From Bacillota bacterium (GTDB taxonomy: Bacteria; Bacillota; Sulfobacillia; Sulfobacillales; Sulfobacillaceae): a DNA stretch of 17,309 bases. A model generated the notes under the pieces. That model worked only from the letters and a program-made list of their open reading frames with translations, was not told the origin of the DNA and did no database searches. Positions 4,458 through 17,309 of the stretch are shown in pieces (within the stretch, counting starts at the first letter, position 1; each line of letters begins with the position of its first letter). Where the stretch lies: contig JAMCTO010000253.1 of the NCBI GenBank assembly GCA_023381095.1, positions 1 through 17,309 of the forward strand, in the 5' to 3' direction. A program made the position numbers and the translations under genes.

Positions 4458-5954
4458 CTATACCGCACCGAAGATTCGATGGTATAGGTCTTCTCCGAAA
4501 CTGGTTTGCAAAGGTTTACCTTCCTCGAGCTTAAATGTACGTTCTCCGTCAGAGAGCCTTTGCGGTTGCAAGAATAGAAAGTTTTCGCGTTGTTGCTGAT
4601 AAAGACCGGCTGCCAATTCGTATAAATGCGTTACAAAAAACACTTGCACATGTTTTTCCACTAAAGCACTCACAATTTGCCGCGCAATCTCAGAACCTTC
4701 CCGTTCATTGGTGGCTGCAAATGACTCATTAAACAGTACGAGCGAGTTGGCTTTTAGCTGGTCGACAATCTCACTCATTCGATGGAGTTCTTCGTCGAGT
4801 TTGCCACTGTTCATGGTTACATCTTCTTCACGTTTGAAATGAGTAAAAAGCCCATTGCAAATATTAGCCTGAAAGGACTCTGCGGGGACAAACATTCCAC
4901 ATTGCATCATAAGTTGCGCAAGGCCAATACTCCGCAAAAAAGTAGACTTGCCACCTTGATTGCGCGGCGTAATGATGACCATGTCTTTACCGTCAGCCTT
5001 AACCGTATTGCCCACCACGCGAGGTACCTGGCGCAATGAGAGGCACACATCATAAAGCCCTTCAACACTCAGCAGGCGTTCTGTGGTTGCTGCTGGGACC
5101 GGAAAGCACAAAGGTTCTTCTTTTTGCGCTAGGACCTTATGAAGAGTTAAACATCCCATGTAAAACGCTAGTTCGGTTTTCAAAAGGGTAAAGAAGTTGA
5201 GAACATGGTCGGTCGATTGCGCAAGCACATTGGCGACTTGGTAAATGCCCCGATCGCGCAATTCTGCCAAAGCACGAGCCCCCGTGTCGTCCCGGTCTGC
5301 TATGGTATAGGTATAAAAACGGGGTGTTTTGGTCATTATTCGGGCAATCCAGGGCGACTTTTTGGTCTGAGATGTCCGATGCAGCCGAAAACGGGTTGCT
5401 TTATTGCCCGGTCCTAGGGCAGCACTGATCCAAACACCCTTGCGAAATTTCAGTTCGCGGAGATGGCTTTTGACTTGATCGAGGTACTCTTCCCCCAATT
5501 CATTGATTAGCATCGTGAAAAATCTAGAAAATCCGCTGGAGACAAACTGGTGGGCGTGTGTTTGCGCAATGTGTTTCAACTGTTCTAGGGTTTCAACAAA
5601 CATCTGCATCACGTCGACGGATCTCTGCAGAATCGCGCTGGGATAAGAACTAAATAGGCCGAGGTAATTCTTTTTCTCGCGTTCAATTGCAGTTGCTGCG
5701 ATGGCGTAAATATCTCGCACGACAGATTCCTGGTTGACGCAATCATTGAGAATGTCTTGGCGATATAGGATCACATCAAGATCGACAAGTGGCGACAGTG
5801 TTACCTGTCGCGAGATTGTCCAAACAAATTGATCTCCGGCCGCCATGGCGTTCCATAAGGCGGACAACTCCAGATCTTGGATCAGGGCCGATTCATTGGG
5901 CGAGATGTCTTGGACAGTAAAGTCTTTGGTGGGATACATGAGAAATACATTCAT
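4458..5954 (-). CDS. MutS-like ATPase, second subunit of a tandem pair
   Basis: A 498-residue protein ending in a MutS domain V-type ABC ATPase. It lacks the mismatch-binding domain I of true MutS (about 850 residues). The P-loop region is ITPRNQGGKSTF (K336), with Pro-Arg replacing the usual Gly-Pro before Asn. FTHFKREED (370-378) and GKLDEELHRM (384-393) match the loops after the P-loop in MutS. Walker B is SLVLFNES, with Asn409-Glu410 replacing Asp-Glu. The H-loop His is present (VTHLYEL, His443). Start ATG 5954 overlaps the upstream stop as ATGA, with AAGGAG just before it inside the previous gene. The overlap implies coupled translation and probably a heteromeric complex. Expression should follow the fluoride riboswitch upstream of the pair. 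The substrate is unknown. Confidence 0.85.
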   Translation of the reverse strand: MNVFLMYPTKDFTVQDISPNESALIQDLELSALWNAMAAGDQFVWTISRQVTLSPLVDLDVILYRQDILNDCVNQESVVRDIYAIAATAIEREKKNYLGLFSSYPSAILQRSVDVMQMFVETLEQLKHIAQTHAHQFVSSGFSRFFTMLINELGEEYLDQVKSHLRELKFRKGVWISAALGPGNKATRFRLHRTSQTKKSPWIARIMTKTPRFYTYTIADRDDTGARALAELRDRGIYQVANVLAQSTDHVLNFFTLLKTELAFYMGCLTLHKVLAQKEEPLCFPVPAATTERLLSVEGLYDVCLSLRQVPRVVGNTVKADGKDMVIITPRNQGGKSTFLRSIGLAQLMMQCGMFVPAESFQANICNGLFTHFKREEDVTMNSGKLDEELHRMSEIVDQLKANSLVLFNESFAATNEREGSEIARQIVSALVEKHVQVFFVTHLYELAAGLYQQQRENFLFLQPQRLSDGERTFKLEEGKPLQTSFGEDLYHRIFGAV

Positions 5955-7480
5955 AATATCCGCTCCTTTAACCAGTGATAGGTCATGCGGTATTTTTCGG
6001 CGATAGACAACGCGAAAGACAATCCATCTGGAGGTCGCCGCAAGATTTTATACGTGCGTACTGCGGGATTGTCGGGAACCACTGAACTGACCAAGCTGAC
6101 GGTCTTTTCATTAAACGATGCAAGTTCATCGATGAATGTGACCCATACCGCCAGTAGATCGCTTCCGCAGAGGCTTGCCATGACCTTGTTGCTGAGAAAC
6201 AGTGCGTCCTGCCATGTCGTGGAGGTGAAGATTTCGTTGAGGATGACCACACTATGAGGCGTGGATTCTTGAAGAATCTCATGCATTCTGATCAGGTCAT
6301 CCTGGAGTTTGCCGTTGCGATTGTTAAGAGTTTCCTCTTTTTCGAAATGTGTGAATAGGCGATCGAATAGAAACAGGCGAGCTCCAGTGCCTGGTACCGG
6401 ACAACCAAGGCTGGCCAGGTAGTGCAGTTGTCCAAACATGCGGGCGAAAGTGGTTTTCCCTCCTTGGTTCGGTCCGCTTACTACGAAAATACGCTCGGGA
6501 TCCTTAAGGTAAAAATCATTACGCACTATGGTTGCGTGATCTGCAATGCGTTGATAGGCAAGAGCGGCATCAAAAGCATCATTCGCAAAAATTTCTTTGT
6601 TGGTGGATACCTCGGGATAACAAAATGGCAATCCGGCCTGTTTAAAGAATTCTCTATAATCCAGAACCGCTATGTAAAATTGAATTTCTCGGTCAAATAT
6701 GGCAATCGTTTTGTCTAGATAATCGACGCGCGTTATGAAAAAGGAATCCAAATAGGCGAAGACCTCGGGGTATAATTTTGCTACAAAATCGAGTATTCCA
6801 GCTTCTACATGATTCATGTTCGGCCCGTCGGTAAATTTGATCCGATACTGCTTTACGGGCCCCTGTTTAAATTTGGCGAAAATTTCTGCGACCTCGGAAC
6901 TATAGTCAATATCGTCCCAATAGGGATGCACATCAATCTGTTGTCCGTGGATATGCAGTCGATATTGCACTGTGCCTAACGCGTCCTTTATCTCCCGGGC
7001 CTCGGTTTCTAAGGCGAGAAATCTATCGGAATGGATATATTCGACAAGATAGTTAGTGAAAGAGACAAGGCCTGGGGAAACGTATTCGACTTCTGCCAGT
7101 GAGTTCATTAAATCTAAGACGGCATGGCAATAAAGCTCTACCGCATCGACAAACCAAACTGCCTTTTGGTAGTGATAGGTTAGTTTCTGGGATTGCACCA
7201 GGTATTCACGCATGGTGCGCATGGTATGGGCAAAAGACAGAATTGCTTCTAGCAAAAGGGGATTCTCGAGGTCGCGCATGACGTCTTGGCGATACCGTAT
7301 GGTATCCCTATTGGTCAATGGAGCATAGAAAAAGGGGGATAATTCGTATTCAGCCCTGCCTGCTGTCATGGCGGCAATAATTTGATCCAAGTTTAAGTCC
7401 CGAAAATACTGAGGTGCATTGGGAACTTCGCTGGATGGGCGGTCTTGAGTCCGAGGGTAGAGAATGCTCGAGAATTTCAT
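5951..7480 (-). CDS. MutS-like ATPase, first subunit of a tandem pair
   Basis: A 509-residue paralogue of its downstream neighbour, again with an N-terminal helical (lever/lock-like) region of about 320 residues and a C-terminal MutS-type ATPase. The Walker A is orthodox, SGPNQGGKTTF (G336 to T344). FTHFEKEET (376-384) and GKLQDDLIRM (390-399) follow. Walker B is VVILNEIF, with Asn415-Glu416 instead of Asp-Glu. The H-loop His found in the partner is replaced by Phe449 (VTFIDEL). The N-terminal mismatch-recognition domain and any Smr nuclease domain are absent. Start ATG 7480 has AGAGGA eight bases upstream. It is the first gene after a fluoride riboswitch. A role in mismatch repair should not be assumed; the family name reflects only the ATPase. 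Confidence 0.86.
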   Translation of the reverse strand: MKFSSILYPRTQDRPSSEVPNAPQYFRDLNLDQIIAAMTAGRAEYELSPFFYAPLTNRDTIRYRQDVMRDLENPLLLEAILSFAHTMRTMREYLVQSQKLTYHYQKAVWFVDAVELYCHAVLDLMNSLAEVEYVSPGLVSFTNYLVEYIHSDRFLALETEAREIKDALGTVQYRLHIHGQQIDVHPYWDDIDYSSEVAEIFAKFKQGPVKQYRIKFTDGPNMNHVEAGILDFVAKLYPEVFAYLDSFFITRVDYLDKTIAIFDREIQFYIAVLDYREFFKQAGLPFCYPEVSTNKEIFANDAFDAALAYQRIADHATIVRNDFYLKDPERIFVVSGPNQGGKTTFARMFGQLHYLASLGCPVPGTGARLFLFDRLFTHFEKEETLNNRNGKLQDDLIRMHEILQESTPHSVVILNEIFTSTTWQDALFLSNKVMASLCGSDLLAVWVTFIDELASFNEKTVSLVSSVVPDNPAVRTYKILRRPPDGLSFALSIAEKYRMTYHWLKERIL

Positions 7481-7565: not shown

Positions 7566-7596
7566 AAACAAAACACCCCCGCAGAATGTAGGTGTT
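7566..7596 (-). terminator. Riboswitch-controlled intrinsic terminator
   Basis: On the minus strand AACACC (7591-7596) pairs with GGTGTT (7572-7577), followed by TTGTTTTG. No minus-strand gene ends here, so this is a leader terminator. It reuses the aptamer's 3' pseudoknot strand and should form when fluoride is absent. Confidence 0.8.
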
Positions 7597-7650
7597 ATTA
7601 GCTTCGGCCATGCCGGCATTTTTGACAACGTTCTGGTCAACACCATGACC
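7588..7650 (-). promoter_or_regulatory. Fluoride (crcB-type) riboswitch aptamer upstream of MutS-like pair
   Basis: Read on the minus strand from 7650, the stem GGTC/GACC closes the loop ATGGTGTT. An AACG segment, a helical insert, and GCTAATAACACCTAC at the 3' end follow. The loop GGTGTT can pair with the 3' AACACC, the pseudoknot that defines the fluoride aptamer. Those same AACACC bases also form the terminator stem directly downstream, so the two structures exclude each other, as expected for a fluoride-on switch. The copy at 12840-12900 has the same loop but a different, still paired, stem (GGCC/GGCC), which is compensatory change. The assignment is by recognition of the crcB consensus; no covariance model was run. 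Confidence 0.87.
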
Positions 7651-7671
7651 AACCATAGGGTACTTAATTCT

Positions 7672-7677: not shown

Positions 7678-8190
7678 CTCAAAACCGAACGTTTCGACGA
7701 ATCGGGCTGCAATCCATCGACGTAGGCAGTGGCCACGGACGCTGGTGCTGTTTTGGCGCTGGTCATGTGATCTCTTCGACAATCGCCGTTTGTTTTAGTC
7801 ACCGCATAGCCTATTAGGACCTTGACACAGGAAAGACTATGGAATACGTTAAATTTATAGAATGAGCCATGGAGCTGGCTCACCCAATTGCCGCAAGGCC
7901 AATGGCTCCTGATCAATTGGTATTGGTCGGGGGCCATTTTTAATTTGACTTCGCGTGACCCCTGACCGCCGTGATATTTTTCGAAAGCAGGGTACACCAT
8001 GCGCATAAAACCTCATATTTGTGAATCTTGGACTCAAGCGCCCACGGATTGTCGGCACGACAGTTTCGCGATCCGACGGCGGTCGATGCGTACTGGATTG
8101 ATTCCGACCACGAAACCAGAGTGTGGCCAGCACGACCAAACGGGCAACGGGTGAAGTGATTTTCCAAGGCAAATTCCCTTCGGGCCGGGG
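7678..8190. other. About 510 bp gap between the two fluoride units
   Basis: The gap lies between the end of the HAD gene and the second riboswitch promoter. A minus-strand frame of 105 codons (7855-8172, TTG start, weak GAAGGGAA upstream) begins 18 bp after the HAD stop with a short hydrophobic run (VARLVVLATLWF), but the rest is Arg/Pro-rich and unlike any family I know. A 7-bp stem TGAGCCA/TGGCTCA at 7863-7882 followed on the minus strand by an AT-rich run may terminate the upstream operon. No fluoride exporter gene is present here. Confidence 0.4.
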
Positions 8191-8646
8191 CTATTCCCGC
8201 AGGGTGGCAATTAGACGATTCGGATGAATCAGCAGTTCCAGTCCTCGCTCAATGGTGGGAACCCAGATATCCGCTGCCAGCAATGCCTGAACAGACGCTC
8301 CTTCCGGTCCCATGACGCCTATGGCCAAATCCGCCGCCAAGAACATTGGTTCGTCATTGGCGCCGTTACCCACCGCTACCACACCGCCTGTTAATTGTTG
8401 AACCAAATCCTCTTTATCCTTTCCTGTCTTGACAATCTCCACGGGGATTCGCAGACGCTGTGCAAAATGGGCGACCGTGCCAAAAGTGTCGGCCGTGGCA
8501 ATCAGTGTGGAATACCGGGAGGCCACCTTTTTTAATAATTCTTCGGTTTGCAAGCTAACCTGTCCGTCTAGGGCCAGAGTACCATTGAAATCGAACACCA
8601 CGTAGTCCAAGGTTATCGCCCCGCGCCCGGGAATATCGATCTGCAT
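8191..8646 (-). CDS. Small HAD-family phosphatase-like protein (P-type-ATPase-like)
   Basis: A 151-residue soluble HAD-superfamily protein resembling the phosphorylation domain of P-type ATPases. Motif I reads DFNGTLA, so the nucleophile Asp is present but the usual second Asp (general acid/base) is Asn. Motif II is the Thr in IATADTFG, motif III a Lys in KTGKDKEDL, and motif IV GNGANDEPMF, which holds the Mg-binding Asp. I chose ATG 8646, with AAGGAG (8658-8663) 11 bases upstream; a GTG at 8658 would overlap that site. It is the last gene of the riboswitch-led operon, 36 bp after the Trp-rich gene. The physiological substrate is unknown. A link to fluoride tolerance follows from the operon, not from the protein itself. 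Confidence 0.82.
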   Translation of the reverse strand: MQIDIPGRGAITLDYVVFDFNGTLALDGQVSLQTEELLKKVASRYSTLIATADTFGTVAHFAQRLRIPVEIVKTGKDKEDLVQQLTGGVVAVGNGANDEPMFLAADLAIGVMGPEGASVQALLAADIWVPTIERGLELLIHPNRLIATLRE

Positions 8647-8682
8647 AAACTTTCCCACTCCTTACGGCCACTATTGATAAAT

Positions 8683-9618
8683 CTAGTCTAACTGCAGTCC
8701 CCATCTCTTCGCTTGAGATCGTCCGCGTAAGGAACCCGTCAGACCGCCCAGGTGCCATTCCGTTGTTTGCACATTACTCAGTGTTTCATAAAGTGCGTAG
8801 TTCAAACTTGCCGCCCAGCTTGACCAAATGCTATCCCATGCGGCAGCGGTTTGTGAAGTTTTCGATGCATTTAGATAAAAGCCTAGGCCCAGGGTCATCA
8901 AAGAAATGCTCTCTTGGGCGCTTTGGGGGCGAGGAATTGCCACCGTTTCAACGTCGGGAACTTCTGGGACATGGCCTGCATAAGCCCCTGAATGGGTCCA
9001 TTCGACGAGTTGCTGTTCTTCTTGGAGACGCCAGCGATAGAGCCAGATGGCTTCCTCCCAGCGATACCAGAGATCCGCCCACTGGGTAATATGGTTGTGC
9101 CAGAATGAAACAAACCCCGACATTTCGTGATCATGGGAGTGCTCAACACCAATCCGCCATATGTCTTCCCAATTGATGCGGCTTTCGGGAGAAATGTTGA
9201 CACGGTCATAGATTTGGTGGGGAATACGACAAAATAGCGTTGGTTTCTGAGCCCAGCACTTAAGACGCACCACCGCTTGATCCAGTTCGGTATCATGGCC
9301 CCGCCAGCGATCGCTGACATCAATCCATGAAGATTCGTGCCACCATCTTGGGTGCTGTAAGCCAAATAATGCGAGACGTAGCTCATTGTCCGCCAGAAGG
9401 CATTCTTCCATCTGAATCGCGCCGTCAACATTGGTCAATACCCAATAGGATCCTAACGCAGTTTGCCTGACGATTGGATCCGATTCCTGGTCGCATATCA
9501 CGTCGCCGAGCATCGGAAGCTGATCATGTTGCATCGATCGCCCTACGAGCCATGCCCATCTGCACCATTCATTTATCCCGGCGCTGTCGGATGGCGGACA
9601 CGGCTTTTGGTCCATCAT
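8683..9618 (-). CDS. Tryptophan-rich protein of unknown function
   Basis: A 311-residue protein that I do not recognise. The start is ATG 9618, preceded by AGGAGG (9624-9629) at five bases; a longer frame to 9741 would run into the MFS gene and lacks such a site. It has no signal peptide or long hydrophobic segment, so it is probably cytoplasmic. About 23 residues are Trp (around 7 percent), grouped in clusters such as HPRWWHESSW and QWADLWYRWEEAIWLYRW, the latter probably an amphipathic helix. It also has several His residues, for example GVEHSHDHEMSGFVSFWHNH. The gene starts 23 bp after the MFS stop and precedes the HAD gene by 36 bp, so it is a firm member of the fluoride-switch operon. 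Confidence 0.75.
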   Translation of the reverse strand: MMDQKPCPPSDSAGINEWCRWAWLVGRSMQHDQLPMLGDVICDQESDPIVRQTALGSYWVLTNVDGAIQMEECLLADNELRLALFGLQHPRWWHESSWIDVSDRWRGHDTELDQAVVRLKCWAQKPTLFCRIPHQIYDRVNISPESRINWEDIWRIGVEHSHDHEMSGFVSFWHNHITQWADLWYRWEEAIWLYRWRLQEEQQLVEWTHSGAYAGHVPEVPDVETVAIPRPQSAQESISLMTLGLGFYLNASKTSQTAAAWDSIWSSWAASLNYALYETLSNVQTTEWHLGGLTGSLRGRSQAKRWGLQLD

Positions 9619-9641
9619 ACGTTCCTCCTCTAAGTGAGAAT

Positions 9642-10838
9642 TTAGGAACTCAGCTTGACGGTTCGGATCATCGCCCATAGCCCTACGAAAGCGAAACTGG
9701 CTTCTACTGCGAAGCCCACGCGAGGATTGGTTAGTGTCCATAGCATTCCCATAATCAGGCCAGCTGCCAATTGTCCTATACCGCGAACGGCGGCAATTTG
9801 CCCTAATCCTTGACCCCGGCTAGCATCCGGGACGAGACGCACCGTTGCTAATTTTTGGGCTACTTCGATAAGGCCGGTGGCCAGTCCTGCGGCGGCAAAC
9901 AAGAGAGCCCATTGTCCGATACTGCGACCAACCAAAGCAAACCCCAGAACGACGAGGGCCCATAGCCCATAGCCAAGAAGCAGCAATGCGCGGCCCGGAA
10001 GACGGTCAGCGATCCAACCAATCGGATAAGCGCTTGCCGCATAAACCACGTTATGAAGCGTATACAACAGCAAGGCCAGGGTGTGAGCCGTCATCGGTCC
10101 CAATGTCACAGAACTTTGCCATACGCGAAGAATAAAGAATGTGGGGGCTAAATATCCCGCCGCAAAAACAGCGGTAGCCAGGCGATATTGGATAAATGGG
10201 CGAGGCCAGGCGTTTGTCGCGACTTTTGTGGACAGAACCATGGGTGAGCGCAGCTTACGTACCCGCAATATAACCAGCACGGTGATAACTGCAGGAACGG
10301 CGCTCCAAGCAATGAGTGTTCTCGGACTCACATACGCCACAAGCAAGGCGGCACTGAGTGGCCCCAGCAAGGCGCCGGCAGTATCAAACGCTTCCCGCAG
10401 TCCATAAGCCTGACCGACATACTTAGGGGGCACTTCTTCAGCAATGTACGCGTCGCGAATGGGGCCGCGGGCTCCGCGGCCTGTCCATCCTAACGTTCGG
10501 AGTACGACCACCCACGGCCACCAAGTGACCAAAGCCATAAGAGCTTTAATTCCGGTTAGAACGTATCCCAGGACTAGAACTCCATGGCGGTTAGCCTTGT
10601 GATCACTGACGCGTCCACCCCACACTGAGGCCCATGCTTGTGCCAAATTAGAAACTCCTTCGGTTAATCCCAAAGCCATCGCTGGAGCTCCCAGGGCAAT
10701 AAGAAACCCCGGCATCAAAGCGGTCACCATTTCGTGACCCCAGTCCGAAAACAGGGAAGCTAATGAAAACGACCATACATTTCGGGTGAGCCAAAGACGC
10801 CGATTTGTGCCGTCGTCCGATTGTGAATGGGGGCCCAT
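9642..10838 (-). CDS. MFS transporter
   Basis: A 398-residue major facilitator superfamily protein with about 12 hydrophobic segments. After the second segment comes GGRVSDHKANRHGVLVLGY, matching the cytoplasmic motif A (G-x-x-x-D-x-x-G-R/H). The RTLGWTGRGARGPIRDAYIAEE stretch is typical of one bacterial MFS drug/metabolite subgroup. I prefer ATG 10838, 12 bases after GGGAGG; TTG 10847 would add three residues but lies only three bases from that site. It lies about 110 bp after enolase with no obvious terminator between, and 23 bp before the Trp-rich gene. The substrate is not readable from the sequence. In a fluoride-responsive operon it could export fluoride-stress metabolites or the ion, but MFS proteins are not established fluoride channels. 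Confidence 0.86.
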   Translation of the reverse strand: MGPHSQSDDGTNRRLWLTRNVWSFSLASLFSDWGHEMVTALMPGFLIALGAPAMALGLTEGVSNLAQAWASVWGGRVSDHKANRHGVLVLGYVLTGIKALMALVTWWPWVVVLRTLGWTGRGARGPIRDAYIAEEVPPKYVGQAYGLREAFDTAGALLGPLSAALLVAYVSPRTLIAWSAVPAVITVLVILRVRKLRSPMVLSTKVATNAWPRPFIQYRLATAVFAAGYLAPTFFILRVWQSSVTLGPMTAHTLALLLYTLHNVVYAASAYPIGWIADRLPGRALLLLGYGLWALVVLGFALVGRSIGQWALLFAAAGLATGLIEVAQKLATVRLVPDASRGQGLGQIAAVRGIGQLAAGLIMGMLWTLTNPRVGFAVEASFAFVGLWAMIRTVKLSS

Positions 10839-10951
10839 AGTCTCCAACAGCCTCCCAGGAAAAAATGTTGTTTTTCGCGGTAGCCTAATTCATGGAATGG
10901 AACAGGGTATCTCTCCGCGTAACCTTGGAGGTTTCGGGTTCCTCACATGAC

Positions 10952-12241
10952 TTACTCATCGAGTCCCAGTGGAGAGTACCATCGCCACCCCGCATAGTCC
11001 AGTTCTGCATCATGCGCTTCCATCAGCAAAAACCGATTATACTTGGCGAGGCGTTCACCGCGAGCGGGCGCTCCTGACTTCACCTGAGACACTCCTGTAG
11101 CCACTGCAAAATCGGCCAGAGAGGTATCGCACGTTTCGCCAGATCGGTGAGACACGACGCAGTTCCAACCCGCCTGCTTTGCGATATTGACCACTTCACG
11201 AGTCTCGGTTACCGTACCAATTTGATTGAGCTTAATTAGGACGGCGTTAGCGGATTGTTCGCGAATTCCCCGTGTTACCAAGTCTGGGTGTGTAACAAAA
11301 ATATCGTCACCGACAATTTGGCATCGTTTGCCCAAACGAGACGTCAGTTGTTGCCAACCAGTCCAGTCATCTTCAGCTAATCCATCCTCAATGGATATTA
11401 ATGGATATTGCTGTGCCCATCGTGTATACTGGTCGATCATTTGGTCGCTACTCAAGACCACTGATTCGCTCCATCTGTAGTGATCTCCGTCTCTCAACGA
11501 GTTGGCGGCCACATCAACACCGATCGCGATATCATGTCCGGGCCGAAGACCCGCATCGCCCATGCTGTTTAGCAATAATTCGAAAATTTGGTCGATATCG
11601 TCAATCCGGGGAGCAAATCCGCCTTCATCACCTACCGCCGTGCGCAAACCAGCCTTATTCAACCGAGTTTTTAATGCGTGATAGACATCTGTGCCCATAC
11701 GCATGGCGTCAGCAAAAGAAGAAGCACCTCCCGGAATTAACAAAAATTCTTGGACCGGAATAGCGCTATCGGCATGCATACCGCCATTGATCACGTTAAA
11801 CTGCGGGGTTGGAAGAGTACGAGATTCCCCGCGGCCCCAATAGCGATATAGAGGTTCCTTGAGAGCTTGGGCTGCTGCCAGCGAGGTTGCTAAAGACACA
11901 CCCAGAATAGTATTGGCACCCAAGCGCGATTTGTTAGGCGTACCATCCAAAGTCAACAGCCGTTGATCTAGCTGTGCCTGTTGGGTTGCCTCAAAACCAA
12001 TGAAAGCGGGGCGAATAATTTCATCAATTATATGAATGGCTTTGGTTACCCCGCGTCCTGAAAAGGCGGCGTCGCCGTCGCGGAGTTCTCGCGCTTCTCG
12101 TGAACCGGTTGAAGCTCCAGCAGGAATTCCCGCCAGAGCCCGATCCCCCGAATCGAGGGAAACTTCAACAGCCAAGGTCGGCCACCCGCGAGAGTCGAAT
12201 ATTTGGAATCCTCTAATATCAAGAATAACTGGGATAGACAT
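10952..12241 (-). CDS. eno: Enolase (phosphopyruvate hydratase), riboswitch-linked copy
   Basis: A 429-residue enolase that interconverts 2-phosphoglycerate and phosphoenolpyruvate in the cytoplasm. Key residues are in place: the GASTG loop (42-46), His156, Gln164-Glu165, Glu206 in GDEGG, the Mg ligands Asp243, Glu285 (SIED) and Asp312 (GDD), Lys337 (IKLNQIGT), SHRSGET with His365, and Lys388. The C-terminus (GWRWYSPLGLDE) differs from common housekeeping enolases. Start ATG 12241 has an almost perfect GGAGGTGAT eight bases upstream (measured from GGAGG), located inside the end of the pyrophosphatase gene. The two genes overlap by 23 bp, which suggests translational coupling. Enolase is strongly inhibited by fluoride plus phosphate, so a fluoride-switched copy makes sense as target replacement. 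Confidence 0.95.
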   Translation of the reverse strand: MSIPVILDIRGFQIFDSRGWPTLAVEVSLDSGDRALAGIPAGASTGSREARELRDGDAAFSGRGVTKAIHIIDEIIRPAFIGFEATQQAQLDQRLLTLDGTPNKSRLGANTILGVSLATSLAAAQALKEPLYRYWGRGESRTLPTPQFNVINGGMHADSAIPVQEFLLIPGGASSFADAMRMGTDVYHALKTRLNKAGLRTAVGDEGGFAPRIDDIDQIFELLLNSMGDAGLRPGHDIAIGVDVAANSLRDGDHYRWSESVVLSSDQMIDQYTRWAQQYPLISIEDGLAEDDWTGWQQLTSRLGKRCQIVGDDIFVTHPDLVTRGIREQSANAVLIKLNQIGTVTETREVVNIAKQAGWNCVVSHRSGETCDTSLADFAVATGVSQVKSGAPARGERLAKYNRFLLMEAHDAELDYAGWRWYSPLGLDE

Positions 12242-12740
12242 GTGTATCACCTCCAGGAGATTTTCGCGTCAAAAACCGTTGCTGACATTGTTGAATCAAC
12301 GTTACAGCGACATCCTGATCTTGAAAATTGCCTACCGTGGTGACAATGCCCTGTAACGTCTTATATTCTTGAAAGAAATGGCGAATCTCCCGCAAACGAT
12401 GATTGCCAATGTCGGTCATCGTTTTTATCTGGCCGAATCGCGGGTCTGTATCGACGACGCCGATGATTTTTGCATCCAGTCCATGTTCGTCTTCCATCCA
12501 CAAGACTCCGATTACACGCACGGTTACCTCGATTCCTGGGGCAATTGCGGTCGACGCCATCGCCAACACATCGAGCGGATCGTTGTCTTCCGCCCAGGTT
12601 TCGGGAATAAAGCCATAATTTACCGGATAATGCATCGCGGCATGCAATACGCGATCTAAGCGAATTTTCCCGGTGGTCACATCATATTCGTACTTATTTT
12701 GTGACCCGTGGGGAATTTCGATAATTGTCTGGACAATCAC
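12219..12740 (-). CDS. ppa: Family I inorganic pyrophosphatase
   Basis: A 173-residue soluble pyrophosphatase that hydrolyses PPi to two phosphates and drives biosynthetic reactions. Comparison with the E. coli enzyme (about 176 residues) shows conserved active-site features: Glu18 (KYEYD), Arg30, Tyr42 (YGFIPET), the Asp cluster DNDPLD at 52-57, Asp84, Asp89 and Lys91 with the expected spacing, and Tyr126-Lys127. The start is GTG 12740, preceded by GGGGAGGGG. It is the first gene after the fluoride riboswitch and overlaps enolase by 23 bp. Family I pyrophosphatases are potently inhibited by fluoride, and the family is a known companion of crcB-type riboswitches. Whether a second, housekeeping copy exists elsewhere cannot be told from this window. 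Confidence 0.95.
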   Translation of the reverse strand: MIVQTIIEIPHGSQNKYEYDVTTGKIRLDRVLHAAMHYPVNYGFIPETWAEDNDPLDVLAMASTAIAPGIEVTVRVIGVLWMEDEHGLDAKIIGVVDTDPRFGQIKTMTDIGNHRLREIRHFFQEYKTLQGIVTTVGNFQDQDVAVTLIQQCQQRFLTRKSPGGDTHVYPSYS

Positions 12741-12813
12741 CCAAAACCCCTCCCCATTTCACGCAGCATATTTCGGATGGGGGAATGGTTGGCGCGATGA
12801 GACTTTGCAGCGC

Positions 12814-12849
12814 AAAAAATTTGACACCCCACCCATTTGGTAGGTGTCA
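12814..12849 (-). terminator. Riboswitch-controlled intrinsic terminator
   Basis: On the minus strand TGACACC (12843-12849) pairs with GGTGTCA (12822-12828), followed by AAATTTTTT. It lies between promoter and first gene and shares its 5' strand with the aptamer pseudoknot, so fluoride binding should prevent it forming. Confidence 0.88.
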
Positions 12850-12900
12850 TCATCCTGCGTTTCCAGGCCCTTAGAACATTGTCAGGCCAACACCATGGCC
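12840..12900 (-). promoter_or_regulatory. Fluoride (crcB-type) riboswitch aptamer upstream of ppa-eno operon
   Basis: Read on the minus strand from 12900, the stem GGCC/GGCC closes the loop ATGGTGTT, then TGACAATG, a variable helix, and GATGATGACACCTAC. The loop GGTGT pairs with the 3' ACACC as the aptamer pseudoknot. This 3' strand is shared with the terminator hairpin immediately downstream. The element starts within a few bases of the start point predicted by the promoter at 12911-12939. The downstream genes, pyrophosphatase and enolase, are the textbook fluoride-sensitive enzymes, which independently supports the call. No covariance search was run. Confidence 0.92.
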
Positions 12901-12910
12901 TTATGCCACT

Positions 12911-12939
12911 AGGATACCACTCGGATGGCATCCAATCAA
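12911..12939 (-). promoter_or_regulatory. Promoter of the ppa-eno operon
   Basis: The -35 is TTGATT (12934-12939), the spacer is exactly 17 bp, and the -10 is TATCCT (12911-12916), all on the minus strand. The predicted start, about 12904, falls just before the first aptamer stem. Confidence 0.72.
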
Positions 12940-12961: not shown

Positions 12962-13426
12962 TTATTCCAACATGGAGTCTTCCCTCTTGCGAAAAATCCG
13001 GTAGATGCCGGTGCACTCAGCGGCAACTTGTCCGGATTCATCAAGAATTTCGCCTTCGACAAAGACCATACGGGATCCTGCGCGAACTACCCGGCCATGA
13101 CCGACAATGCGATGTTTGGCGGTAATCATCCGTTGATACTGGATGTTCAGGGTTATGGTGACTTGACCTCTTACATTGTCTGTCCAAATGGAGCGAACCG
13201 CAGTACCTAAAAGTCCATCAAACATGTAAGCGACGATGCCTCCATTAACTGCGTCAGTTCCACCGCCACCTCGATGATGATGTTGCACATCAAGCTCAAT
13301 GGTGGAATGGCCGCCTCTAGCTTCAATGATGCGCAATCCTGCCCACGAGAAAAAGGGATAACCATTGGCTTCGCTGGGAGGGAGAGGGTGAACATTTTTG
13401 TATTTATCATCTTCGTTCGCGTGCAA
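12962..13426 (-). CDS. PaaI-type hotdog thioesterase
   Basis: A 154-residue single-domain hotdog-fold protein of the PaaI/YdiI acyl-CoA thioesterase type. The family signature is the glycine pair and Asp in DAVNGGIVAYMFDGLLGTAV (Asn61, Gly62-63, Asp70), where the helix N-terminus and acidic residue act on the thioester. The strands HSTIELDVQHH and QVTITLNIQYQR flank it as expected. The start is TTG 13426 with AGGAGGAG about five bases upstream; no better ATG exists. It ends just upstream of the riboswitch promoter. The nearby acyl-CoA operon suggests an acyl-CoA substrate, but chain length cannot be told. Confidence 0.82.
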   Translation of the reverse strand: MHANEDDKYKNVHPLPPSEANGYPFFSWAGLRIIEARGGHSTIELDVQHHHRGGGGTDAVNGGIVAYMFDGLLGTAVRSIWTDNVRGQVTITLNIQYQRMITAKHRIVGHGRVVRAGSRMVFVEGEILDESGQVAAECTGIYRIFRKREDSMLE

Positions 13427-13457
13427 CGAAACTCCTCCTATTTAGTTGCTCTGTATT

Positions 13458-13495
13458 GAAAAAACAACAGCCTCCACGGATTAATCCATGGAGGC
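13458..13495 (-). terminator. Intrinsic terminator of the IscA-like gene
   Basis: On the minus strand GCCTCCA pairs with TGGAGGC (ends at 13470-13476 and 13489-13495), with an inner GGAT/ATCC extension. TGTTGTTTTTTC follows the stem. It lies 20 bp after the IscA-like stop. Confidence 0.88.
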
Positions 13496-13514
13496 CATTG
13501 CTACCTTCGAGAGG

Positions 13515-13871
13515 TTAATGGCTGCAGGCGTTCGCAGAACCGGATTCGTCCTTAGTTCGGAAAGAATTACCACAACCACACGAAGATACCGCATTGGGGT
13601 TGTTAATGGAGAATCCGCCCCCCATGAGAGAATTCACGTAATCTACTTCGATGCCTTCGAGATACGGAGCACTTTGGGGATCAATGACAACCTTGATACC
13701 GCCAAAATCATATTGGTTGTCATCGGTCTGCGGTGCATCCAAGGCCATTCCGTAGCTAAAACCGCTGCATCCACCCTTGCTGATATAAATTCTAAGGGCC
13801 AGATCCTCACGGTCCTTGGACACCATGAATTCCTTCACTTTATCTGCGGCTGAATCGGTAAGAGTAACCAA
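13515..13871 (-). CDS. IscA/ErpA-family Fe-S cluster carrier
   Basis: A 118-residue A-type iron-sulfur carrier (HesB/IscA/ErpA family) that passes Fe-S clusters to target apoproteins. The three conserved cysteines are present: one in SKGGCSGFSYG (Cys35) and two in SSCGCGNSF (Cys98, Cys100). I chose TTG 13871, with AAGGAGG (13883-13889) 11 bases upstream; a GTG at 13883 overlaps that site and is unlikely. The gene is monocistronic, with its own promoter at 13921-13948 and a strong terminator. Assignment to IscA, ErpA or SufA cannot be made from the sequence alone. Confidence 0.9.
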   Translation of the reverse strand: MVTLTDSAADKVKEFMVSKDREDLALRIYISKGGCSGFSYGMALDAPQTDDNQYDFGGIKVVIDPQSAPYLEGIEVDYVNSLMGGGFSINNPNAVSSCGCGNSFRTKDESGSANACSH

Positions 13872-13920
13872 ACTTAGGACCACCTCCTTGGGCGCATATG
13901 AGCCAGAAAACTTATAAGCT

Positions 13921-13948
13921 ATTATACAGCATATTGCACAATGTTCAA
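13921..13948 (-). promoter_or_regulatory. Promoter of the IscA-like gene
   Basis: TTGAAC (13943-13948), a 16-bp spacer and TATAAT (13921-13926) on the minus strand. The -35 abuts the stop codon of the MarR gene. Confidence 0.75.
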
Positions 13949-14428
13949 TCAGGTACCGGAATTTTTCGTCGTTTTGGCTTCATGCTCCAAATCAGCGAAA
14001 GCCGCGAGCAATGCGGATAATCCTTCGATTAGTTTGAACCGCTCATGCGATTTCATACGCTCCGCAAACCGCGTAAACTGTTCTTGACGACGAGACAACA
14101 CTAGTTCGGCCAATTGCGTGCCATAAGACGATAAACGCACACGAACAATGCGTCGGTCACTGCCATCGCGTCCTCGTCGCACTAAATTCATATTAATCAA
14201 CCGATCCACTAAACGCGTGGCTGCTGATTCGGTCAGTCCAAGCAATTCGGCCAGTTCCCCCATTGGCAAATCGTCGGTGCCATAGAGCGACACCAACGCA
14301 TTCATTTGCGAGGGAGTCACCTCAAGTCCGATGAGTTCTCGGGTGGCTTCAGCGTCTAAATACCGCATAATGCGGGGGAACAAACGTTGAATCTCATTGA
14401 CAAACGATTGAATATCCTCTTCAGGCAC
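13949..14428 (-). CDS. MarR-family transcriptional regulator
   Basis: A 159-residue winged-helix regulator. The DNA-binding region spans roughly residues 38-100: TPSQMNALVSLYG, then the helix-turn-helix LPMGELAELLGLTESAATRLVDRLINMNLVRR, then the wing DGSDRRIVRVRLS. Flanking N- and C-terminal helices would form the dimer interface. The start is GTG 14428, with GAGGGGCGG about seven bases upstream. It is divergent from the acyl-CoA operon across 233 bp that contain a repeated AT-rich motif, so it is the obvious candidate repressor of that operon and of itself, perhaps released by an acyl-CoA. That regulatory link is inferred from position. Confidence 0.88.
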   Translation of the reverse strand: MPEEDIQSFVNEIQRLFPRIMRYLDAEATRELIGLEVTPSQMNALVSLYGTDDLPMGELAELLGLTESAATRLVDRLINMNLVRRGRDGSDRRIVRVRLSSYGTQLAELVLSRRQEQFTRFAERMKSHERFKLIEGLSALLAAFADLEHEAKTTKNSGT

Positions 14429-14460
14429 GATCGATCCGCCCCTCGTGACTCTTTATCTTT

Positions 14461-14498
14461 ATCATAGCAAAAAGTCGGCGGATCATCATAGCTAAAAG
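14461..14498. promoter_or_regulatory. Direct repeat, candidate MarR operator
   Basis: ATCATAGCAAAAAG (14461-14474) and ATCATAGCTAAAAG (14485-14498) differ at one position and start 24 bases apart, between the marR start and the acyl-CoA operon promoter. On the minus strand each copy contains TATGAT, a -10-like hexamer for the MarR gene. The repeat could be an operator or alternative promoters. Confidence 0.5.
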
Positions 14499-14505
14499 CT
14501 TGCCG

Positions 14506-14535
14506 TTGACAAATATTGCGTTGTGAGGGTATACT
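14506..14535 (+). promoter_or_regulatory. Strong promoter of the acyl-CoA operon
   Basis: A perfect TTGACA (14506-14511), an 18-bp spacer and TATACT (14530-14535). Transcription would start near 14542, leaving a leader of about 120 bases before the first gene. Confidence 0.85.
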
Positions 14536-14600
14536 GGCGCTGCAGCAAAAGGGGGCATCGCCACCAATGATGGAGAAAGTCTATACCCGAATTTTGCCTT

Positions 14601-14632
14601 GCGCTTTGGTCCTAGAACCGGAGCGCCTTTTT
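14601..14632 (+). terminator. Leader terminator (possible attenuator) before the acyl-CoA operon
   Basis: GCGCTTTGGT (14601-14610) pairs with ACCGGAGCGC (14617-14626), two of the ten pairs being G-U, with a 6-base loop. A C and then TTTTT (14628-14632) follow. It lies between the promoter and the first gene, so unregulated it would stop transcription. A 39-codon frame from ATG 14567 runs across it. Confidence 0.6.
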
Positions 14633-14661
14633 ATCCTGCAGCTATGTGAAAGGAGCCCACG

Positions 14662-15510
14662 ATGTATATTAAAAAAGTTGCGGTAGTAGGAGCGGGCACG
14701 ATGGGGGCTGATATTTGCTACACCATCGCCATGGCAGGTATCCCGGTGGTCATAAGAGACGTCAGTAATGAACAGTTAGACCATGCCCGGCAGCATATTC
14801 AGGAGTTGTTTCAAGGACGGGTGGCACGGAACAAAATGAGTCCGGCGGATGTAGAAGACCGGATGAATTTTATTACCTTTAGCGGAGATCTTGATGATCT
14901 GGATGGCGTCACTTTGGCAATTGAAGCGGTAACCGAGAAAATGGCCGTCAAAGAGGCGGTATTTCGTGAGTTAGATCAGGTTTTGTCCCCTTTATCCGTG
15001 ATAGTGTCCAATACATCGGCCTTAAGTATTAGTCACTTGGCGACAGTCACATCAAGGCCAACGCGTGTGGCCGGCATGCACTTCTTCTATCCGGCCCATA
15101 TGATGAAATTGGTTGAAGTGATTGCCGGAGACCAAACCAGTTCTGAAACCGTGGAAGCGGTAATGAGACTAGCGGAAGAAATTCGCAAGATTCCGGTGAA
15201 GGTCAAAGAGTGTCCGGGTTTTGTGGTGAACCGCATATTGATGTCCTCGATGGCCGAAGTTTTGCGATATAAAGAAGAACATCAACTGGAAGCGGCCAGC
15301 ATCGATCAAGTCATCACCCAAAACAAATTAGCCCCGATGGGGCCATTTATGCTCGCTGATGCATTGGGATTGGATGTCGCGTTGGAAGTGGCGAACACGC
15401 TGTATCAGTCATTAGGCGATCGATTCAAACCTAGTCGTGAACTGGAGCAACTAGTGGCTGAAGGGCATCTGGGAATGAAGACCGGTCAAGGTTTTTACTC
15501 ATACCGGTAA
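14662..15510 (+). CDS. 3-hydroxyacyl-CoA (3-hydroxybutyryl-CoA) dehydrogenase
   Basis: A 282-residue NAD(P)-dependent dehydrogenase that oxidises 3-hydroxyacyl-CoA to 3-ketoacyl-CoA or the reverse. The Rossmann motif is GAGTMG (10-15). The catalytic set is complete: Ser119 (SNTSALS), His140 (GMHFFYP), Glu152 (LVEVI) and Asn190 (GFVVNRIL). The C-terminal helical domain ends with LGMKTGQGFYSY. Length fits single-domain HBD/PaaH enzymes. Start ATG 14662 has AAAGGAG upstream. It is first in an operon with an extra dehydrogenase C-terminal domain, an enoyl-CoA hydratase and an acyl-CoA synthetase, pointing to beta-oxidation or a related acyl-CoA pathway. Confidence 0.93.
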   Translation: MYIKKVAVVGAGTMGADICYTIAMAGIPVVIRDVSNEQLDHARQHIQELFQGRVARNKMSPADVEDRMNFITFSGDLDDLDGVTLAIEAVTEKMAVKEAVFRELDQVLSPLSVIVSNTSALSISHLATVTSRPTRVAGMHFFYPAHMMKLVEVIAGDQTSSETVEAVMRLAEEIRKIPVKVKECPGFVVNRILMSSMAEVLRYKEEHQLEAASIDQVITQNKLAPMGPFMLADALGLDVALEVANTLYQSLGDRFKPSRELEQLVAEGHLGMKTGQGFYSYR

Positions 15511-15530
15511 AAAGAGGGGAGGAACGAACA

Positions 15531-15839
15531 GTGGCACAAGAGTGGGAAAGCGAATTGCTAACCCGATTTCAGTTGGCGACATTTTTAGAAGCGGTAAGGC
15601 TGCACGATGAGGGAATTGCCAGTGCGGAAGACATTGATATTGCCATGCGCGCTGGCGCTGGACTTCCTAAAGGTCCTTTTGCCTGGGCTGACAAAGCCGG
15701 ACTGGATATGATTTTGGGGCAATTGCAGGAACTTACTCAGGCAGGCAACCCAAATTTTGCTCCACCAGAATCTCTGGTGGATAAAGTGGCACGCGGACAA
15801 CTGGGCGATAAATCCAAACGAGGCTACTTAAGTCATTAA
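15531..15839 (+). CDS. Stand-alone 3-hydroxyacyl-CoA dehydrogenase C-terminal domain
   Basis: A 102-residue protein consisting only of a 3HCDH C-terminal-type helical domain. RFQLATFLEAVRLHDEGIASAEDIDIAMRAG is followed by GLPKGPFAWADKAGLDMIL and the terminal DKSKRGYLSH, which parallels MKTGQGFYSY at the end of the preceding enzyme. There is no Rossmann domain, so it cannot be a dehydrogenase alone. Start GTG 15531 has GGGGAGG upstream, and the gene follows its neighbour by 20 bp. In bifunctional FadB-type enzymes this domain is duplicated; here the second copy seems to be a separate subunit that may complete the dimer or the active site. That is inference. Confidence 0.83.
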   Translation: MAQEWESELLTRFQLATFLEAVRLHDEGIASAEDIDIAMRAGAGLPKGPFAWADKAGLDMILGQLQELTQAGNPNFAPPESLVDKVARGQLGDKSKRGYLSH

Positions 15840-15856
15840 ACAGGGAGGAATCTCGA

Positions 15857-16615
15857 ATGGCAGTTATTGAGGTGGAACAGCGCGATCGGGTGGAGATTTG
15901 GACCCTGAACCATCCACCAGTCAATGCCATCAGTATGGATGTTTTAACTGAATTGGAAACGCTTTTGAATCAGGTGTCCAGTAATGATGACATCAATGCG
16001 GTGGTCATTACCGGAACTGGCTACACGTTTGCGGCGGGGGCGGATCTAGCTGGCTTTATGAAACTAGGAGGCCAATTGCCGGAGTTTCTTCGTAAGGGCG
16101 CTCAAATATTTGGCCAACTAGAAGAGTTGCCCAAACCTGTGGTGGCGGCAGTCAATGGGATTGCCTTTGGCGGCGGAAACGAGTTGGCGATGGCCGCAGA
16201 TATTCGCATTGCTTCCACCAAAGCGAGATTTGGACAACCAGAGGTCAATTTAGGCATCATTCCGGGTTGGGGAGGTACGGTGAGAATGCCCCGGCTCATT
16301 GGGCGCTCCAGAGCTGCACACCTGTTATTGACTGGAGACGCGATTGACGCATCCGAGGCCTACCGCATTGGTCTGGTGGCACAAGTAGTGGAACCCGCAT
16401 TGCTGTTGGAATACGCGGTGAATCACGCTGATCGACTGGCGAGTTTGCCGCCTCTAGCTCTCGGTGCCATCAAGCGCTTGCTTTCGGATGAGGATCTGGA
16501 AGGGGCCCAGGCGCGGGAGACGGCGGAAATTTTGCACTTAATGACCACGCAGGATGCCATGGAAGGTGTGATGGCATTTATGCAAAAACGTCGGCCACGA
16601 TTTCGGGGGAAGTAA
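15857..16615 (+). CDS. Enoyl-CoA hydratase/isomerase family protein
   Basis: A 252-residue crotonase-fold enzyme, most likely adding water to trans-2-enoyl-CoA. The first oxyanion-hole segment is FAAGADL (58-64) and the second AFGGGNELAMAADI (103-116). The two catalytic glutamates of true hydratases are present: Glu109 (GGGNEL) and Glu129 (FGQPEVNLGIIPG), 20 residues apart as in mitochondrial hydratase (144/164). Start ATG 15857 has GGGAGG upstream. The gene lies 17 bp after the small dehydrogenase-domain gene and 2 bp before the acyl-CoA synthetase gene, so it belongs to the operon. Confidence 0.92.
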   Translation: MAVIEVEQRDRVEIWTLNHPPVNAISMDVLTELETLLNQVSSNDDINAVVITGTGYTFAAGADLAGFMKLGGQLPEFLRKGAQIFGQLEELPKPVVAAVNGIAFGGGNELAMAADIRIASTKARFGQPEVNLGIIPGWGGTVRMPRLIGRSRAAHLLLTGDAIDASEAYRIGLVAQVVEPALLLEYAVNHADRLASLPPLALGAIKRLLSDEDLEGAQARETAEILHLMTTQDAMEGVMAFMQKRRPRFRGK

Positions 16616-16617
16616 CC

Positions 16618-17309
16618 ATGAACACCAAACCCTGGCTGCAGTTTTACGATGATGTGCCTCATGACCTGAAAGAGGCGCCACAGCCCTTGTATCAGATCCT
16701 CGAAGGGAAGCCACCACAGCAAGTGGCCTTAATTTTTGAAAAACAAACCCGGACCTATGGAGAACTTTGGGAAAACAGCGGGAGGATCGCTAAGGCACTA
16801 GCTAACATCGGCATTCACAAAGGCGATCGTGTCGCCCTACTGTTGCCTAATTGTTTTGCTTTTGTGGAGATCTATTATGGAGTCTTGCGCCGTGGCGCCA
16901 TGGTGGTTGCTTTAAATCCGCTCTATACCCCTGCGGAATTGGCGGTCTTGTTGTTGGACGCAGCGCCTAAGGCATTGGTGGTACCCACCCAGGCAGTATC
17001 TCAACTTCCGCCCGGATTGCCGTTTCCGGTGATTTTTGCCGACATCGCCAACGATGGAAAGAAAGAACACGAGGCTAGTGCGGGATACCCAGGTTCGCTC
17101 TGCCTTTCCGACTGGTTAGCAACAGATCAAGGGCCGGATCCGATCGAAATTGACCCAACACAGGATGTCGCTGTGCTGCAATACACCGGGGGGACCACGG
17201 GAACTCCCAAGGGTGCGATGCTCACCCATTGGAATTTATTTGCCAACGCCCTCCAGTCTCGCTGGTGGATGCAACATTTGTTGTCCAACAGTCAAGATAC
17301 GGTACTTTT
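16618..17309 (+). CDS. Acyl-CoA synthetase (AMP-forming), 3' end beyond window
   Basis: The first 230 codons of an ANL-superfamily adenylate-forming enzyme, probably a long-chain fatty acid-CoA ligase that activates the substrate for the operon's beta-oxidation enzymes. The N-terminal region has YGELWENSGRIAKALANIGIHKGDRVALLLPNC. The ATP/AMP-binding P-loop is YTGGTTGTPKGAM near residues 188-200, followed by LTHWNLFANA. The frame stays open to the last base, so the C-terminal half and the catalytic Lys are not seen. Start ATG 16618 follows the hydratase stop by 2 bp, with GGGGGAAG overlapping that gene's end. Confidence 0.92.
   Translation, partial: MNTKPWLQFYDDVPHDLKEAPQPLYQILEGKPPQQVALIFEKQTRTYGELWENSGRIAKALANIGIHKGDRVALLLPNCFAFVEIYYGVLRRGAMVVALNPLYTPAELAVLLLDAAPKALVVPTQAVSQLPPGLPFPVIFADIANDGKKEHEASAGYPGSLCLSDWLATDQGPDPIEIDPTQDVAVLQYTGGTTGTPKGAMLTHWNLFANALQSRWWMQHLLSNSQDTVL

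Follow-up and report, generated by a model that had tools for sequence, protein, structure and literature searches.

The DNA analyzed here (the window) is a 17,309-nt stretch of contig JAMCTO010000253.1 (assembly GCA_023381095.1) from a Bacillota bacterium of the family Sulfobacillaceae. It probably carries an operon for fluoride-inducible tolerance in an acidophile related to Sulfobacillus, in which a fluoride riboswitch precedes dedicated isozymes of enolase (Eno) and inorganic pyrophosphatase (Ppa) together with partner proteins. Five genes stand behind the first aptamer (aptamer 1) in the order ppa, eno, major facilitator superfamily (MFS) transporter, tryptophan (Trp)-rich protein, and HAD-like protein, all on the minus strand from window position 12909 down to 8191. 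The intergenic gaps, in operon order from ppa, are -23, 113, 23, and 36 bases, and a stretch resembling a ribosome-binding site lies upstream of every operon gene. An initial annotation of this DNA had listed these elements, from promoter to HAD gene, on one strand with short spacings, and all of them were found in that order. The aptamers, the gene order, the isozyme lineages, and the recurrent association of the genes with aptamers are established at the level of sequence. The features of the operon are as follows.

12834-12909, minus strand: aptamer 1, in the leader of the five-gene operon (36.5 bits with RF01734, whose gathering score is 34; E = 5.1e-7)
12813-12849, minus strand: terminator-like hairpin and T-run of leader 1 (fold of 12813-12857, -15.8 kcal/mol, z = -2.8)
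12219-12740, minus strand: ppa, family I inorganic pyrophosphatase of the aptamer-linked lineage (PF00719, 4.4e-54, 182.9 bits, cut-off 23.5 bits)
10952-12241, minus strand: eno, enolase of the aptamer-linked lineage (TIGR01060, 518.5 bits, cut-off 300 bits; PF00113/PF03952)
9642-10838, minus strand: MFS transporter (PF07690, 2e-30)
8683-9618, minus strand: Trp-rich protein (23 Trp in 311 residues)
8191-8646, minus strand: HAD-like protein resembling the P-domains of P-type ATPases (motif DFNGT ... GNGAND; TIGR01525, 4.7e-8, below cut-off)

Genomes and loci

The window genome (G000) is a 1.7-Mb assembly of 326 contigs and is 64% complete. The sister genome G002, from the same genus and 93% complete, matches the island block at 94-95% identity and the flank (window 12964-17309) at 89%; because G002 carries the block as well as the flank, misassembly is an unlikely explanation of the island. 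Fluoride aptamers were found at E 0.001 in 46 of 61 genomes, G000 among these. Loci were fetched around aptamers and target genes, and shares counted in them (e.g., 42/136) describe that sample only. Genes in these loci were called using a simple longest-open reading frame (ORF) caller, with some starts overlong and some genes missed, and the loci exclude the aptamers of the class-level genomes G042-G060 and one site in G029.

Riboswitch aptamers and leaders

By its match to the Rfam model, window 12834-12909 is a fluoride riboswitch aptamer; it lies ahead of ppa, as first annotated, and scores over the gathering score. The hairpin of leader 1 uses the pseudoknot 3' strand GACACC and is followed by a T-run, in agreement with the terminator proposed earlier, though it was not listed by a simple terminator scan. 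The promoter (TTGATT-17-TATCCT) fared less well, being read by eye and falling below the threshold of the consensus scan, so it counts as weak evidence.

A lineage model (R1) was built from 55 aptamers (aptamer 1 of the window and 54 from related genomes), which were found through the Rfam model and hence lean to its structure. The model gave 55.2 bits on aptamer 1, though this aptamer is one of the 55 training rows. In the 55-aptamer alignment, P1, P3, and the pseudoknot were paired in 94.7% of 739 cells (14 pairs), the pairing fell to 31-54% when partners were slid, and 132 double-change cells were observed vs 37.6 in shuffles. Ten loci around housekeeping or second-copy enolases served as a control for the lineage model and gave no aptamer match up to E 0.1.

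The window contains a second minus-strand unit, made up of aptamer 2 and two overlapping MutS-like genes (7480-4458). A third aptamer sits between the two minus-strand units in the opposite direction. The operon of the initial annotation stands as given, with the module reaching beyond it to the MutS-like pair with its own switch and to an orphan switch.

7582-7659, minus strand: aptamer 2, leader of the MutS-like pair (RF01734, 23.7 bits, E = 0.0077; lineage model, 33.9 bits, E = 3.5e-8)
5951-7480, minus strand: MutS-like ATPase A (PF00488, 5.1e-16)
4458-5954, minus strand: MutS-like ATPase B (PF00488, 1.1e-22)
7856-7918, plus strand: aptamer 3, orphan leader (RF01734, 25.5 bits, E = 0.002; lineage model, 31.3 bits, E = 2.3e-7)
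7901-7938, plus strand: terminator of the aptamer 3 leader (-26 kcal/mol, z = -6.5)

Aptamers 2 and 3 are supported as fluoride aptamers by the lineage model, whose training rows exclude both of them and their G002 counterparts and whose E-values are rough. As in RF01734, P1, P3, and the pseudoknot are present, and leaders 1 and 3 have a terminator-like hairpin on the pseudoknot strand; unlike RF01734, two of the three window aptamers (2 and 3) are under the gathering score, and the aptamer subtypes go with the downstream gene. The nearest relatives of aptamer 1 are mostly aptamers preceding ppa, and the nearest three aptamers to aptamer 2 all precede MutS-like genes. The core ATGGTGT was found in 15 of 16 aptamers before ppa and in 5 of 5 before eno, and the core ATGGAGC in all nine aptamers labeled with a CBS-like family (the label in G002 was set by hand).

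Eno and Ppa isozymes

Comparison of sequences supports the operon Eno and Ppa as second, dedicated copies and not the housekeeping ones, because other copies exist and both enzymes form lineages of their own. Another enolase is encoded on contig C311 of G000, and enolase and Ppa are each present in two copies in G002. A tree of 67 enolases places the window Eno in a 10-member clade of aptamer-linked enzymes (support 100/100) that adjoins 32 housekeeping enolases of the order. Residues W23, S162, P165, and G244 are common to eight of the ten clade members, with A44 in seven of these eight, and nearly all of 48 housekeeping enolases have N, N or Q, D, and A, respectively, at the first four positions. 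These clade-specific positions are presumably near the mobile active-site loops and metal ligands. The 16 aptamer-linked Ppas are split from 30 housekeeping Ppas by one branch with a Shimodaira-Hasegawa-like approximate likelihood ratio test (SH-aLRT) value of 99, in a tree that is partly unsure owing to the long rows G019, G050, and G021; they share N41 (16/16), W49 (15/16), and Q130 (15/16). The catalytic motifs of Eno and Ppa, at the residues that we take to be catalytic, are retained in alignments to solved enolases and pyrophosphatases.

In the fetched loci, an aptamer was located upstream of 18 of 23 enolase genes and, by script, of 16 of 17 Ppa genes, where two overlong ORFs (L124 and L128) overlap an aptamer. 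The same genes recur behind aptamers in related genomes, and the aptamer control claimed in the initial annotation is supported at the level of sequence. Of the 19 enolase rows that similarity alone had marked as fluoride-linked, three (G022, G011, and one from G030) are without an upstream aptamer; the G014 enolase is also without one, and its stretch ends in the preceding MutS-like gene. Other second enolases fall elsewhere in the tree (G007 and G016; G010, G014, G018, and G030), a pattern suggestive of repeated recruitment of enolase. The enolases of G012, G023, G027, and G031, labeled housekeeping, group with the G010/G014/G018/G030 set, and no aptamer was found in their scanned stretches.

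Partner proteins

Close MFS loci (at least 45% identity) numbered 24, and 18 of them have an upstream same-strand aptamer, at a distance of 1.6 kb in G004, past a 154-residue ORF in G005, and only before an interrupted piece of the gene in G020. The six exceptions comprise two at contig edges and four in families f2 and f3. These counts omit the short pieces G024:C122 and G019:C36, and two G007 rows are counted as one gene. None of 20 distant MFS paralogs shares a contig with an aptamer, vs 18 of the 24 close ones (Fisher, p = 1.6e-7); the comparison is of related genes in related genomes, so that the p-value is not that of independent events, and the distant paralogs were judged by contig against the aptamer list, with only loci L259 and L260 scanned using the lineage model. 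Outside the order, the MFS protein was matched at E 1e-50 in 3 of 398 genomes of the phylum; two of the three were known before, and the remaining one shows 36% identity. In G020 (L253, 12062-16445), the aptamer-linked MFS gene is split by about 3 kb with opposite-strand ORFs.

The Trp-rich protein had no Pfam match and no NCBIfam match. Its relatives form 16 clusters in a database of 5.8 billion proteins, with five more obtained by profile among the best 8000 candidates scored, and 13 public contigs encode relatives, two of these contigs being titled Sulfobacillus benefaciens and the others Bacillota bacterium. The 61 genomes yielded 17 matches, 16 with an open reading frame and one, in G022, a fragment containing stop codons. 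Of the 16 open copies, all but one (15) are preceded by a same-strand aptamer, at no more than 121 bases in seven cases; the remaining copy, in G003, begins about 270 bases from the end of its contig. In G005, the 154-residue ORF, on the opposite strand, lies between the aptamer and the Trp-rich gene (shorter ORFs disregarded). The predicted structure is confident (predicted local distance difference test [pLDDT] 92.3, predicted template modeling score [pTM] 0.88) and has helical repeats to about residue 122, long helices at 168-208 and 255-305, and strands at 127-133 and 223-232. The fold is predicted to consist of HEAT-like repeats and a helical domain; HEAT_2 matches 5 of 22 family members. 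The model had no match at E <0.001 in the PDB using Foldseek, where the C-terminal half was not searched alone, and none at E <0.001 in a viral fold library; its fold matches fall within the range of common helical arrangements. In the open-licence literature, nothing was found for fluoride, riboswitch, and HEAT repeat together, and the family looks new and is undescribed as far as the searches reached.

In the MutS-like pair, MutS domain V (MutS_V) was the only MutS domain found using Pfam at E 0.001, and an N-terminal mismatch-binding domain was not found in either protein. An aptamer lies upstream of 19 of 24 MutS-like A ORFs in the fetched loci, fragments included. Nothing was found for fluoride riboswitch and MutS together in the open-licence literature. 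The name of the HAD-like protein expresses likeness only, as no family model passed: PF08282 scored 20.1 with a cut-off of 20.9, and NCBIfam P-type ATPase (best) and HAD-IIB models were below cut-off. The pattern D-x-N-G-T with GNGxND is present in 23 of 24 HAD homologs, the 24th being a 101-residue piece. An anti-phage reading of the MutS-like, HAD, and Trp-rich proteins was set aside, PADLOC giving one marginal match (NsnB, 0.0062).

Fluoride exporters

Most of what is understood of fluoride tolerance concerns two exporters, CrcB and CLC-F. Neither was found in the window, as the initial annotation had remarked. Among draft genomes of the same family as the window genome, CrcB was not found in G000, G001, G002, G007, G016, G019, G022, and G030, and G026 has only a CrcB fragment below cut-off. 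Two of these drafts, G007 (97% complete) and G019 (95%), gave no CLC match either, although ppa and eno are aptamer-linked in both; the G019 stretch showed neither a Trp-rich gene nor a full copy of a close MFS gene. The best CLC of G002 is of the chloride type, with 128 bits to chloride CLCs vs 52 to CLC-F. Aptamer-linked eno or ppa was present in 6 of 7 CrcB-less vs 11 of 23 CrcB-bearing genomes (p = 0.10, not significant). This co-occurrence test covers G002-G031 and omits G000, G001, G032, and G033 (64, 71, 59, and 61% complete); G026 was counted as CrcB-less despite its fragment, and G003 was counted as MFS-bearing from a contig-edge fragment.

CrcB genes also occur as adjacent pairs beside a DUF190 gene (L122 4033-5357, L133 7193-8432, and L117 1612-2826); the pairs in L122 and L133 follow an aptamer, and none was seen directly before the L117 pair. 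G024 (90% complete, 4% contamination) has 15 aptamers, of which contig C67 holds six, and this genome also has several MutS-like pairs and eight CrcB match rows.

Proposed mechanism and alternatives

At low pH, fluoride would enter the cell as hydrogen fluoride (HF) and dissociate in the neutral cytoplasm. Fluoride with Mg2+ would stabilize the pseudoknot of the nascent leader, the terminator needing the same strand would fail to form, and transcription would proceed into ppa, eno, and the MFS, Trp-rich, and HAD genes; the second switch would act likewise for the MutS-like ATPase pair. The Ppa and Eno isozymes would keep pyrophosphate hydrolysis and glycolysis running when fluoride blocks the housekeeping enzymes. 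The MFS protein would most likely export fluoride, HF, or a fluoride adduct or rebalance ions, the Trp-rich HEAT-like protein would most likely serve the products of its operon as a scaffold or helper, and the HAD-like protein would most likely carry out phosphate chemistry. In this scheme, we infer the fluoride response, the tolerance of Eno and Ppa, and all partner roles, those of the MFS, Trp-rich, HAD, and MutS-like proteins from the company that their genes keep.

Several observations weigh against this scheme. The terminator-like hairpin of leader 2 is weak (z = -0.24, no better than shuffles), and because of this, the mechanism of leader 2 is less sure. In the aptamer alignment, 10 pairs were changed on both sides vs 8.0 in shuffles, a count reached by 43 of 500 shuffles. 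The replacement copies proposed in the initial annotation hold for enolase in G000 and G002 and for Ppa in G002; a second Ppa was not found in the 64%-complete G000, a genome in which the missing CrcB likewise says little. The HAD gene is only partly tied to the switch, with an upstream aptamer in 13 of 24 genes of the fetched loci (47 match rows overall), and MutS-like genes and MFS occur together with no aptamer detected in G034, G038, and G039 (in G039, only the B gene was called). As a CrcB stand-in, the MFS transporter was rejected by co-occurrence, being present in 5 of 7 CrcB-less vs 14 of 23 CrcB-bearing genomes (p = 1.0).

The alternative that survives best, possible though doubtful, is a dose effect, by which the switch would supply more Eno and Ppa of ordinary fluoride sensitivity and the MFS, Trp-rich, and HAD genes would be passengers or general stress genes. 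The frequent location of HAD homologs away from aptamers is consistent with it, but the Eno and Ppa copies linked to aptamers fall into separate lineages that have substitutions in common, and Trp-rich and MFS genes also stand directly behind aptamers of their own.

It is unlikely that the MFS protein represents a new class of exporter (of fluoride, HF, or fluorophosphate) where CrcB and CLC-F are missing. The gene lies directly behind its own aptamer in G012, G023, G024 (C67), G027, and G031, at 29-347 bases; the CrcB-less genomes G002, G007, G016, G019, G022, and G030 point the same way, as do the lack of a CLC match in G007 and G019 and the chloride-like CLC of G002. A benzoate transporter is reported to add to CrcB-independent fluoride tolerance in Pseudomonas putida (PMC13104614). 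Against an exporter of this kind, MFS showed no association with CrcB absence, the MFS frame is split in G007 and the gene is interrupted in G020, and G019 and G022 are without CrcB and also without a full close MFS copy. A wider proposal is quite improbable, namely that Sulfobacillus-like acidophiles would tolerate fluoride largely without both known exporters through a switched island in which the Eno and Ppa isozymes, a new MFS exporter class (for fluoride or an adduct), and the Trp-rich HEAT-like helper with the MutS-like ATPases act together.

Very improbable is a repair machine of the Trp-rich HEAT-like protein and the MutS-like pair that would free fluoride-locked enzymes: the predicted HEAT-like fold, the presence of MutS domain V alone, the recurrent co-occurrence with eno and ppa, and weak, below-cut-off matches of both MutS-like proteins to the reactivase ATPase model KamC would fit it, but the MutS and MutS2 models match somewhat better, likewise below cut-off, and the title of reference 99 of PMC11139923 describes the inhibition of Escherichia coli pyrophosphatase by fluoride as reversible, so a reactivase may be unneeded.

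Comparison with known systems

The fluoride-inducible tolerance operon proposed here is like that of Enterobacter cloacae FRM, where a riboswitch operon with extra eno and ppaC genes reads ppaC-uspA-eno-gpmA-crcB-orf5249 and was shown to contribute to resistance (PMC5533749). In both, a fluoride riboswitch stands ahead of extra pyrophosphatase and enolase genes, the extra Ppa being shown in G002 and not in G000. Unlike E. cloacae FRM, with its Mn-dependent ppaC, crcB, and uspA, the window has a family I pyrophosphatase (PF00719) and no crcB or uspA, followed by the MFS, Trp-rich, and HAD genes. Fluoride switches are already known to precede genes for enolase, pyrophosphatase, HAD, and formate hydrogen lyase (PMC11139923); the terms mutS and MFS are missing from its text as far as available. 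In the open-licence literature on fluoride, Sulfobacillus, and riboswitch, Sulfobacillus was named only among crystal structures used. Fluoride is toxic to bioleaching cultures including Sulfobacillus thermosulfidooxidans (PMC12831704; crcB, riboswitch, and enolase do not appear in its main text).

Fluoride-switched Eno, Ppa, and HAD have precedents, and the Trp-rich family and the exporter-poor gene set look new. Riboswitch islands with many enzymes and unnamed partners are kept by an acid-adapted lineage, in which HF entry is presumably most severe, and no CrcB was found in some near-complete genomes. The undescribed Trp-rich family, the MFS group, and the MutS-like pair are named as testable fluoride genes, and the shared substitutions of the Eno and Ppa isozymes can be tested for fluoride resistance.

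Orphan aptamer and other loci

No recognizable gene was found in the window behind aptamer 3. In G002, a stretch of about 1.9 kb that is absent from the window (junction near 8032) lies between the HAD gene and aptamer 3 and contains an ORF behind the aptamer (L111 12320-12865). This ORF matches a family whose members also follow aptamers at other loci (single comparisons with 27, 26, and 28% identity and E 5e-11 to 2e-12). The name CBS-like comes from one family member that matches CBS weakly (0.02, below cut-off), and the G002 ORF has no CBS match. The G002 aptamer preceding this ORF and aptamer 3 of the window share 98% identity. Because G006 has the same layout as G002 at the CBS-like gene, loss of the gene in the window is the simpler reading. 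Aptamer 3 now faces the 3' end of the HAD gene (window 7856-8646), and fluoride could induce an antisense transcript there.

On the plus strand, the window also encodes an ArsB arsenite efflux protein (434-1729; 582 bits, over cut-off) followed by a coenzyme A (CoA)-disulfide-reductase-like flavoprotein (1760-3118; below cut-off), and an ORF near the G021 fluoride locus (L230 5310-6602) is ArsB-like by eye. In the fetched loci (L111-L263), 42 of 136 aptamers are directly followed by a HyfC/NuoH-like gene, the first of a complex-I/hydrogenase-4-like operon (for example, L169 5193 minus, L170 5352 minus, and L180 2363 plus; PF00146 in one member tested). Among the large-subunit homologs of that complex, 38 of 40 are without CxxC and seem to lack the nickel-iron (NiFe) site. 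A Gpr1/Fun34/YaaH gene, acetate-permease-like (PF01184 in one member tested), stands behind its own aptamer in four loci (L112 1532 plus, L115 8012 plus, L122 6186 minus, and L127 13598 minus).

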